Under the pieces are notes generated by a model. It did not search any database and was not told where the DNA came from. It saw only the letters and a list, made by a program, of their open reading frames with translations. From Phycisphaerae bacterium (GTDB lineage Bacteria > Planctomycetota > Phycisphaerae > UBA1845), in contig JABWBH010000013.1 in the NCBI GenBank assembly GCA_013360585.1, positions 62,001-126,000 of the forward strand: a DNA stretch of 64,000 nt. Reading direction: 5' to 3'. A program made the translations under genes and the position numbers. Positions 33,651-37,712 of this stretch are shown piece by piece. Position 1 is the stretch's first letter, and each line of letters starts with the position of its first letter.

Positions 33651-35564
33651 ATGATGACCGGAATCACCGGATTATTCGACACTTCGGACTTTCCGCCGCG
33701 CTGGACCTGCGGAACCTGGACGCCCCTGCACGGGTGGGTCCACATCGTGGCCGACGCCGCGATCTGGGGGGCGTACACGATGATCCCCGCGGTGCTGGCG
33801 TACTTCATTCTGAAGCGCCGGGATGTCCCGTTTCCGCGCATCTTCTGGTTGTTCTGCCTGTTCATTCTCTCCTGCGGCACGAACCACCTGATGGAGTCGG
33901 CGATTTTCTGGTGGCCGGCATACCGTTTTGCGGCCTTGCTGAAGGTGCTGACGGCGATTGCGTCGTGGGGGACGGTCCTCGCGCTGATCCCGACCGTGCC
34001 GAAGGCGCTGAGCCTTCCCGGGCTGGCGAAGATCAACAGCGATCTGACCCGCGAGATAAAGGAACGACGACGGATTGAAGCGGCCCAGCGCGCCGGAGAG
34101 TCGCAGCTTCGGGCGATTTTTGATCACGCCAGCGACGCCATCATCACCGTCGGAGAGCGGGGCGACATCACCGCGTTCAACCGGGCCGCCGAGCGCCTTT
34201 TCGGATACGAAGCGTCCGCCATCCTCGGCAAGTCCATCTGGGGCCTTCTCGGTCCCGGAGACGGAAACGCCCCCGCGGAAGCGTGGTGGAAGCAGCTTCA
34301 AGGTGCCGGCGCGCCGGCGCAGGACGGTCGTCTGACGGCGACGGGCTGGCGCCGCGACGGGCATGCGGTTCCCGTCGAGCTGTCCGTCGGCGACTTCGAG
34401 ATCCTATCCGCGAAGCACTATGTCGCCATCCTCCGCGACGTGCGCGAGCGGAAGCGCGCGGAGGATCGCTTCCGCATCGCCGTCGAGGCGGCGCCCAGCG
34501 CCACGGTGATGACCGACGCCAAGGGGCGCATTCTCCTGATCAACGCTCAGACCGAGGCGATGTTCGGGTACCGGCGCGATGAACTGCTCGGGAACCTCGT
34601 CGAGACTCTCGTTCCCCGCCGCTTCCGCGATGCGCATCCGCAGTTCCGGGGCGCCTTCTTCGCCGATCCGCACGCGCGACCGATGGGCGCAGGACGCGAC
34701 CTTTACGGACTGCGCAAGGACGGCCACGAAATCCCCGTGGAAATCGGCCTCAATCCGATCAACACGGACGAAGGTCTCGTCGTGCTGGCGTCCATCGTGG
34801 ACATCACCGAGCGAAAACGTGCCGAGGCCTCGCTGCAAAGCGCCCACGATGAACTCCTCCGCCGTAACGAGGAGATGGAGCAGTTCACCTACACCGTGTC
34901 GCACGACCTGAAGTCGCCGCTGGTCAACCTTGAGGGTTTCGCCGCGTTCCTCGCCCGCGACGTCGAATCCGGGCGCACGGACCGCATCGTTGAGTTCACC
35001 GGGCACATCACCCACGCCGTCGGGAAAATGCGCGAGACGATCGACGCCCTCCTCGAGATCAGCCGCGCAGGACGGGTTTCCAGCGATGCGAAGCCCGTCC
35101 ACCTCCGCCGGCTCGTCGACGACTGGGTGGCCGCGCACACCGGGATGATTGCCCGGGCGGGCGCGAACGTCCATGTCGCGCCGGAGTCGCTGGTGATCCA
35201 ATTCGACCCGCAAAGACTTCATGAAGTCTTCGACAACCTGCTGACCAACGCCTTGAAATACGGATGCCCGTCGCCCGGCGGGCGCATCGAAGTCGGCTGG
35301 GAGCGCGGGGACGGCGAGATCCGCGTCTTCGTCCGCGACCACGGACCCGGCATCGCCCCGCGCTATCACAAGCGAATCTTTGAACTGTTCCAGCGCCTTC
35401 ATCGGCAACCAGAAGGGACGGGCGTGGGGTTAAGCCTCGTCAAGCGGGTCGTCGAGCATCATCGCGGGCGGGTCTGGGTCGAGTCGGACGAGGGCCGCGG
35501 GGCGTGTTTCTGGTTTTCTCTGCCCGCCGAGCTGGAGATCCCTGCAAAATCCGAGGTGGGATGA
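33651..35564 (+). CDS. Ethylene-receptor-like membrane sensor histidine kinase (EBD-PAS-PAS-HisKA-HATPase)
   Basis: A 637-residue sensor kinase. Residues 28-120 form three hydrophobic helices with Asp35 and Tyr42 (VADAAIWGAYTMIP), Ile45, Pro46, Ile72, Cys75 and His79 (FILSCGTNHL). Each sits exactly ten positions after the ETR1 residues needed for copper and ethylene binding (25, 32, 35, 36, 62, 65, 69). Two PAS domains follow (about 150-265 and 275-390). The kinase has the H-box SHDLKSPLVNL and ATPase boxes NLLTNALKYG, DHGPGIAP and GTGVGLSLV. GAGGAG precedes ATG 33651. The next gene's start overlaps its stop. The ligand is inferred, not shown. Confidence 0.88.
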   Translation: MMTGITGLFDTSDFPPRWTCGTWTPLHGWVHIVADAAIWGAYTMIPAVLAYFILKRRDVPFPRIFWLFCLFILSCGTNHLMESAIFWWPAYRFAALLKVLTAIASWGTVLALIPTVPKALSLPGLAKINSDLTREIKERRRIEAAQRAGESQLRAIFDHASDAIITVGERGDITAFNRAAERLFGYEASAILGKSIWGLLGPGDGNAPAEAWWKQLQGAGAPAQDGRLTATGWRRDGHAVPVELSVGDFEILSAKHYVAILRDVRERKRAEDRFRIAVEAAPSATVMTDAKGRILLINAQTEAMFGYRRDELLGNLVETLVPRRFRDAHPQFRGAFFADPHARPMGAGRDLYGLRKDGHEIPVEIGLNPINTDEGLVVLASIVDITERKRAEASLQSAHDELLRRNEEMEQFTYTVSHDLKSPLVNLEGFAAFLARDVESGRTDRIVEFTGHITHAVGKMRETIDALLEISRAGRVSSDAKPVHLRRLVDDWVAAHTGMIARAGANVHVAPESLVIQFDPQRLHEVFDNLLTNALKYGCPSPGGRIEVGWERGDGEIRVFVRDHGPGIAPRYHKRIFELFQRLHRQPEGTGVGLSLVKRVVEHHRGRVWVESDEGRGACFWFSLPAELEIPAKSEVG

Positions 35565-36037
35565 CGGCGGTTACTAACGTTTCGAAGCGGGAACTGGCGA
35601 GTTTCGGATCCTTGTCGAGGGCAACCGTTGTGAAACCCGATCTGCATCGAATCTTACTGGTCGAGGATGATGAGGGTCATGCCTTGCTGCTGCGACTGAC
35701 GCTCGCCGAGGTCGCGCCGCGGGCCTCCCTCGAGTTGATCCTCGACGGCGAGCGGGCGCTGACTCGCCTCAAGGAATCCGCATCAGGCCATCGTCCAGAC
35801 CTGATGATTCTGGACTTGAAGCTCCCTCGGCTTGACGGACATGAACTCCTCGCCGAGGTCAAATCCGACCCGAAACTCCAGAGTCTCCCGGTCCTTGTCG
35901 TCACTACGTCCACAAAACAGACCGACGCCGAACTTGCCAGTGTTTACTCTCGCGTCGCGTTCCTGAACAAACCCGTCCCCCCCGTGGAATTGCGGCGAGC
36001 GATTGAAGGACTCGGGTTCGCCTTGCAAGCAGGTTGA
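35561..36037 (+). CDS. Single-domain response regulator, Rcp1-like
   Basis: A 158-residue protein made of one receiver domain after a 25-residue leader. Acidic pocket residues are in ILLVEDDEGHALLL, the phospho-acceptor Asp is in LMILDLKLPRLDG, Thr is in VVTTST and the Lys is in VAFLNKPVPP. Such stand-alone receivers typically partner bacteriophytochrome-type kinases with the same SHDLKSPL H-box. The ATGA overlap with the kinase stop implies coupled translation, so this is its most likely phosphorylation partner. There is no output domain. Confidence 0.9.
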   Translation: MTAVTNVSKRELASFGSLSRATVVKPDLHRILLVEDDEGHALLLRLTLAEVAPRASLELILDGERALTRLKESASGHRPDLMILDLKLPRLDGHELLAEVKSDPKLQSLPVLVVTTSTKQTDAELASVYSRVAFLNKPVPPVELRRAIEGLGFALQAG

Positions 36038-36461: not shown

Positions 36462-37058
36462 ATGCTGGTCATCGACCGACTGAGAAACACCGGAGTCTGC
36501 ATCGGAGAGCACATTCGCATTCGCGTGTTGCGCACCGGCGCGAACCGTGTGCGTCTCGGCATCGAGGCGCCGCGAAGCATCCCGGTCTTCCGGGAGGAGC
36601 TGAAACCGAAGGCGCCTGACCTGGGCGCCACGACGGAAAGAGAACAACCCTTCCGCGTCCTGGTGGTCGAAGACGATCCCAGCCACGCCGCGCTGATCGG
36701 GCTGGTCATTCAGGAGCGTCTCTCGACGTGTCTGACGGTCGCGACTTCGGGTTCGGAAGCACTGCGTCTGCTCTCGCCTGAACGCGAGGCGTCTGCGGCG
36801 CGTCCCAACCTGGTGCTGCTTGATCTGAACCTGCCGGACATGCCCGGTCTGACCGTTCTGGAGGCCATCAAGACCACGCAGGCGCTGCGAGCGCTTCCGG
36901 TGGTGGTGTTCAGCGGGCTGGAGCGCGCGGAGACCGCCCGGCAGTCGCTCGACCTGGGCGCCAACGCCTACGTTCCGAAGTCGACCTCCTTCGACGAGTT
37001 CTCACAGCGGGTCGTGCGCATCGTCGATTTCTGGAGCCAGGTGGGGCGGGTCGCGTAG
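36462..37058 (+). CDS. CsrA RNA-binding domain fused to a receiver domain
   Basis: A 198-residue fusion. Residues 1-50 align without gaps to E. coli CsrA: MLVIDRLRNTGVCIGEHI, NRVRLGIEAPRSIPVFREEL. They keep Arg6, Gly15, Val30-Arg31, Ala36-Pro37, Val42 and Arg44; Arg44 is central to GGA-motif RNA binding, while Arg7 is replaced by Leu. After a linker, residues 65-190 form a receiver with RVLVVEDDPSHAAL, phospho-acceptor Asp121 (VLLDLNLPDMPG), Ser151 and Lys173 (YVPKS). It is predicted to be a phosphorylation-tuned translational regulator. It lies in the locus of the ethylene-receptor-like kinase. GGAGG precedes the ATG. Confidence 0.9.
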   Translation: MLVIDRLRNTGVCIGEHIRIRVLRTGANRVRLGIEAPRSIPVFREELKPKAPDLGATTEREQPFRVLVVEDDPSHAALIGLVIQERLSTCLTVATSGSEALRLLSPEREASAARPNLVLLDLNLPDMPGLTVLEAIKTTQALRALPVVVFSGLERAETARQSLDLGANAYVPKSTSFDEFSQRVVRIVDFWSQVGRVA

Positions 37059-37110: not shown

Positions 37111-37182
37111 AGCCGACGGTGGGATTCGAACCCACAACCCCGGCTTTACGAAAGCCGTGCTCTACCGTTGAGCTACGTCGGC
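37111..37182 (-). tRNA. tRNA-Thr, anticodon CGU
   Basis: On the minus strand the sequence folds into a full cloverleaf: acceptor GCCGACG/CGTCGGC, D-stem GCTC/GAGC, anticodon stem CGGCT/AGCCG with loop TTCGTAA, and T-stem GTGGG/CCCAC with loop TTCGAAT. The anticodon is CGU, reading ACG (Thr). The discriminator base is U, and CCA is not encoded. Confidence 0.95.
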
Positions 37183-37200: not shown

Positions 37201-37608
37201 TTATGCAGGCGGCGGCGCGTCGTCGTCAACCAGCAGCCTGCTTACCGCCGAGAGGAGCTTTTCCATCCGAAACGGCTTGTTGATGTACGCGGCGGCCCCC
37301 AGACCCATCGCCCAGTCCTGATGCCGCCTTCCGACGTTGGCCGTAATCATGATGATGTGCGGTTTGTCCTCCTTGCGCTTCCCCGGTTTCAACTTCTCGA
37401 GGACGAGAAAACCGCTGCGCTTCGGCAGCATCGCATCCAGAATGATGAGATCGGGCGCTCCGCTTTGCGCCAAGGTCACGGCCTGCTCGCCGTCCGTCGC
37501 CACGGCAAGGGTCGCCCCGGATTCGCGCAACGCCGCCTCGATCGCGGATACGATGTCCGGATCGTCATCAACAATGAGAATTCTACGTCCGTGCAGCGAG
37601 GGTAGCAT
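37201..37608 (-). CDS. Single-domain response regulator
   Basis: A 135-residue receiver protein. Acidic pocket ILIVDDDPDIV, phospho-acceptor Asp in LIILDAMLPKRSG, Thr in IIMITANVG and Lys in AAYINKPFRME are all present. The end is Asp- and Pro-rich (VDDDAPPPA). The start at 37608 follows GGAGG at eight bases. It lies beyond the tRNA on the opposite strand from the kinase locus, so its kinase partner is unknown. There is no output domain, so it may relay phosphate or bind a target directly. Confidence 0.88.
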   Translation of the reverse strand: MLPSLHGRRILIVDDDPDIVSAIEAALRESGATLAVATDGEQAVTLAQSGAPDLIILDAMLPKRSGFLVLEKLKPGKRKEDKPHIIMITANVGRRHQDWAMGLGAAAYINKPFRMEKLLSAVSRLLVDDDAPPPA

Positions 37609-37712
37609 CCGTCCATCCTCCGGATTCAGCACCGCCGCGGGGCGTCGCGGCATCCTACTGTCCGGGGAGACTGACGGCAACGCGGCGCCGTGCCGGCGGG
37701 TGCCTCCGCTGG

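Follow-up and report, generated by a model that had tools for sequence, protein, structure and literature searches.

A putative ethylene-receptor-type sensor kinase in a Phycisphaerae bacterium and its neighboring CsrA-REC fusion

Does a planctomycete kinase that resembles the plant receptor ETR1 sense ethylene, and if so, what does its signal act upon? The question is raised by a gene in a 64,000-nucleotide stretch of DNA from a Phycisphaerae bacterium (contig JABWBH010000013.1), referred to here as the window. Judged by its sequence, the kinase adds to a bacterial sensor family that is already known and common. The points worth following are its link to a CsrA-REC fusion and an acidic residue near the copper site.

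A SENSOR KINASE WITH AN ETR1_N DOMAIN

The kinase gene and its parts, all on the + strand, are as follows.

33651..35564, +, sensor kinase ETR1_N-PAS-PAS-HisKA-HATPase_c (637 aa plus stop; open reading frame and Pfam)
33708..33719, +, C20-x-x-W23 motif preceding helix 1; near-invariant among bacterial members, AzoEtr1 being one
33729..34016, +, ETR1_N domain with three membrane helices (residues 27-122; Pfam, AtETR1 alignment, model)
33753, 33774, 33783 and 33786, +, codons of D35, Y42, I45 and P46
33864, 33873, 33885 and 33894, +, codons of I72, C75, H79 and E82
34104..34811, +, two PAS domains, residues about 152-269 and 274-387 (Pfam)
34875..35531, +, HisKA (409-473) and HATPase_c (519-627) (Pfam and sequence)

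The ATG at 33651 is the likely start; the reading frame stays open farther upstream. Residues 27 to 122 match the ETR1_N family (PF25487) with 114 bits, compared to a cutoff of 27 (E 4.1e-33), which is far above chance, and the kinase region shows the H-box VSHDLKSP, an N box, and G boxes. An earlier note on this DNA had described a sensor kinase with a three-helix N-terminal domain and two PAS domains. Pfam, which finds both PAS domains, HisKA, and HATPase_c along with ETR1_N, agrees, as does an AlphaFold2 model of the domain (55-row alignment, mean pLDDT 85) with long helices at residues 25-55, 62-84, and 91-121; C75 and H79 lie in the second. Foldseek found nothing below E 1 for this model in the PDB, so no solved relative was found there.

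The same note had placed D35, Y42, I45, P46, I72, C75, and H79 exactly 10 positions after residues 25, 32, 35, 36, 62, 65, and 69 of ETR1, without gaps. This holds in two alignments: BLASTP against AtETR1 residues 1-129 aligns D35-H79 with D25-H69, ungapped, at an offset of 10 (E 6e-11), and MAFFT places the same seven residues in register. In the AtETR1 sequence used, the seven named residues sit at their published numbers. However, all seven are kept in 114 of 118 aligned rows of the ETR1_N family, and the remaining 4 each have one isoleucine changed and nothing else of the seven. The full set is therefore a family rule; its presence in a planctomycete is real, but as a distinguishing mark of the window protein it fails. 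The C-x-x-W motif is kept in 34/36 and 35/36 of loci found without using the motif. Compared with the sister genome L105, dN/dS is about 0.07 for the ETR1_N domain and about 0.19 for the whole kinase; the domain is under strong purifying selection.

Like the window kinase, Arabidopsis ETR1 has the three-helix domain, the same seven residues, and a kinase-type C terminus; it differs in its 34% identity, an N at position 82, and the lack of a clear C-x-x-W. ETR1 of Arabidopsis has a GAF domain where the window kinase has PAS.

A closer parallel is AzoEtr1 of Azospirillum brasilense, an ETR1_N-PAS-kinase protein that binds ethylene via its first 130 residues and whose stop codon is overlapped by the start of a REC-only regulator (PMC11819568). 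It shares with the window kinase the overlapping REC-only gene, all seven residues, and the C-x-x-W motif. Its differences are a single PAS domain, an ETR1_N domain that is 42% identical, and S at 82; no CsrA-REC is noted in its locus. SynEtr1 of Synechocystis, as described in PMC11819568, is likewise a bacterial ethylene receptor whose signal runs via a kinase to a response regulator; it is also light sensing. The same paper cites putative receptors in further bacterial phyla. With AzoEtr1, the earlier note's list of plants and cyanobacteria as the known sources of ethylene-binding kinases is outdated, and the wider range that a planctomycete example was expected to bring, while weakly true, has mostly been overtaken by published work and by how common the family is. 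In the literature found, receptors with binding data come from plants, cyanobacteria, and Azospirillum only, and a search outside subscription papers found nothing on ethylene-binding domains in planctomycetes.

DISTRIBUTION OF ETR1_N GENES

The window genome (4.24 Mb, 84 contigs) has a single ETR1_N gene. The planctomycete origin proposed earlier stands, since the nearest named genome is the sister genome, "Phycisphaerae bacterium isolate Bin_14R," with a domain 97% identical. ETR1_N is found in 6 of 60 relatives of the same order and in 42 of 392 genomes of the phylum, about a tenth of those sampled, which rules out the window kinase as a unique planctomycete case.

Other phyla have such sensors as well. 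Two peptide patterns run on species genomes yielded 286 stretches encoding the subfamily; the best 80 of these 286 loci come from Planctomycetota, Verrucomicrobiota, Bacteroidota (Mucilaginibacter and Daejeonella), Myxococcota, Hydrogenedentota, Lentisphaerota, and others, several being metagenome-assembled genomes, in which foreign contigs are possible. Plasmid-borne ETR1_N relatives occur in Azospirillum, Novosphingobium, Rhizobium, Rhodovastum, and cyanobacteria.

DOWNSTREAM GENES AND THE CsrA-REC FUSION

Two genes follow the kinase on the same strand.

35561..36037, +, REC-only response regulator, 158 aa (Pfam Response_reg, E 2.7e-16)
36462..37058, +, CsrA-REC fusion, 198 aa, with CsrA at 1-49 and REC at 66-184 (Pfam)

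The ATG of the first overlaps the TGA stop of the kinase (ATGA). Kinase output domains (HisKA and HATPase_c) and a probable partner response regulator are encoded side by side. In 23 of the best 80 of the 286 loci, a separate REC gene comes immediately after ETR1_N; in another 23, REC lies within the ETR1_N gene's own frame.

The CsrA-REC gene begins 424 bases past the REC-only gene. Both of its domains are well matched (CsrA, E 9e-15; REC, E 6e-19), and its model shows strands followed by a REC fold (mean pLDDT 84). R6 and R44, RNA-contact residues of CsrA, are invariant in the alignments made. The tRNA is the one Rfam match in the window, which thus offers CsrA no RNA partner of a known family. 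The sister genome has the same gene order, and dN/dS for the fusion is about 0.16.

Proteins of this kind, a rare type of response regulator, are not a wholly new class: response regulators with CsrA output were catalogued by Galperin in 2006, as reported in PMC2222644. As described there, they join REC to RNA-binding CsrA, as the window fusion does; what sets the window fusion apart is a gene position close to a kinase of the ethylene-receptor type. The literature searched yielded no experimental study of CsrA-output response regulators. What is new is the link to an ETR1_N kinase; the protein class was already known.

From its genomic context, the CsrA-REC protein is a probable partner of the window kinase. 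One can also envision that it is a chance neighbor and that the pathway stops at the REC-only regulator, a view to which we give about equal weight for and against. The gap of 424 bases fits this view. So does the pattern within the order, where CsrA-REC is linked to the kinase only in the window's genus: same-type genes are unlinked in genomes G055 and G058. Genome G416 also carries one, and an ETR1_N search of G416 gave no match. Other CsrA-REC types occur elsewhere, one beside a different kinase. Against it speaks the recurrence of the arrangement. Among the best 80 of the 286 loci, CsrA-REC adjoins an ETR1_N kinase in three different planctomycete lineages. The other two are L139 of Planctomyces sp. 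NAT128, with divergent genes, and L170 of Aeoliella straminimaris, with convergent ones; both have a fusion of another type. Within the window's order, 4/4 genomes with this CsrA-REC have ETR1_N, compared to 6/60 overall (Fisher p 3e-5; leaving out the sister genome gives 3e-4), and 2 of the 5 fusions found in 28 ETR1_N genomes sit in the kinase locus (binomial p about 4e-5, rising to 4e-3 under tenfold clustering of signaling genes); these statistics rest on small numbers and on associations spotted post hoc.

Past a tRNA-Thr gene (37111-37182), the window has another REC-only regulator (37201-37680, - strand), and the sister genome likewise has an opposite-strand REC gene at this position.

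A CLADE WITH AN ACIDIC RESIDUE NEAR THE COPPER SITE

The window domain falls inside an 81-row clade (SH-aLRT 99), and AtETR1, AzoEtr1, and one cyanobacterial member lie outside it. Zavarzinella formosa, Mucilaginibacter galii, and Aeoliella straminimaris are cultured members of the clade. The tree was a quick one, with few columns and long outgroup branches, and the tested receptors placed in it were AtETR1 and AzoEtr1; this separation is probable rather than certain, and the inner forks of this large planctomycete-verrucomicrobial clade are mostly without resolution. Recent transfer from cyanobacteria or Azospirillum is unsupported, the window domain being placed in that clade.

Three positions after H79, residue 82 is E or D in 110/110 rows of the window's clade. 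Outside it, the residue is N in AtETR1, S in AzoEtr1, and S, G, N, D, or E in others. Given spacings of 4 and 3, C75, H79, and E82 would be expected on one face of the helix. The window's clade is a large branch within the family, marked by a peculiarity close to the copper site. E82 is not unique to the clade; acidic residues are present at that position in some cyanobacterial and proteobacterial members as well.

Might E82, on the side of the second helix that faces the metal site, alter the chemistry, so that the copper site is kept but the clade's ligand is copper itself, CO, acetylene, or another small molecule? We consider this somewhat unlikely. The constancy of the acidic residue, in place of the N or S of the receptors known to bind ethylene, and the position of the clade apart from those tested binders speak for a changed ligand. 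On the other hand, all seven ethylene-binding residues are kept, and the acidic residue is shared with members outside the clade. The window's own genome has no DIOX_N protein (the ethylene-forming enzyme or ACC-oxidase type), which also speaks for some other ligand, but a sensor of an outside gas requires no synthesis of its own. With no DIOX_N match, ethylene made by the same organism is not favored, other routes to it being possible; if ethylene is the ligand, it would probably come from outside.

PROPOSED FUNCTION

We think it fairly likely that the window protein is a bacterial ethylene-receptor-type sensor kinase whose domain binds Cu(I) and an ethylene-like gas; by homology, it is probably a copper-dependent sensor of ethylene or a small olefin. 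This reading is favored by the strength of the ETR1_N match (E 4.1e-33) together with the kinase domains and the seven residues in register, by the three-helix model and the strong purifying selection on the domain, and by the ethylene binding of AzoEtr1 (PMC11819568), whose domain is 42% identical and has these seven residues too, and whose gene is likewise overlapped by a REC gene. The CsrA-REC order kept in the sister genome and the adjacencies at L139 and L170 also favor it. It is weakened by the separation of the clade (SH-aLRT 99) and its invariant acidic residue after H79, and by CsrA-REC genes that are unlinked (G055 and G058) or present without an ETR1_N match (G416).

We imagine that C75 and H79 would most likely hold Cu(I) in the three-helix domain and that the domain would bind ethylene or some comparable gas, small and unsaturated. 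Binding may alter helix packing, with the signal passing via the two PAS domains to the kinase. Given the gene order, the kinase would then phosphorylate the REC-only protein whose gene overlaps its own. Possibly, and as a weaker part of this proposal, CsrA-REC would also be phosphorylated, switching a translational regulator that binds mRNA.

The link to CsrA-REC suggests an output at the mRNA level. In its full form, with an ETR1-type copper gas sensor phosphorylating CsrA-REC and the acidic residue of the clade possibly altering the ligand, this gas-to-RNA pathway is unlikely as it stands. If it were true, ethylene or a related gas would control translation directly, with neither transcription nor a small RNA in between.

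OTHER CsrA-DOMAIN GENES

CsrA domains were seen in other settings as well. Planctomycetes G456 and G457 have a second type of CsrA-REC, which resembles that of L139 and includes a helical linker (L187:1246-2184 and L189:987-1814, both - strand); the one at L187 adjoins another hybrid kinase. In G058, of the window's order, CsrA and a pfkB-family carbohydrate kinase share one frame (L093:5292-6404, + strand; Pfam E 3e-17 and 4e-24). In G469 (Gemmataceae), CsrA and an AIR carboxylase (PurE-like) domain lie in one open frame (L188:1509-2477, - strand), which could be a fusion or else a pair of genes with no stop codon to interrupt the frame. Many planctomycete genomes (G465, G467, G476, and G483) have 8 to 14 CsrA-domain genes; those of the window's order have 1 to 3 per genome.
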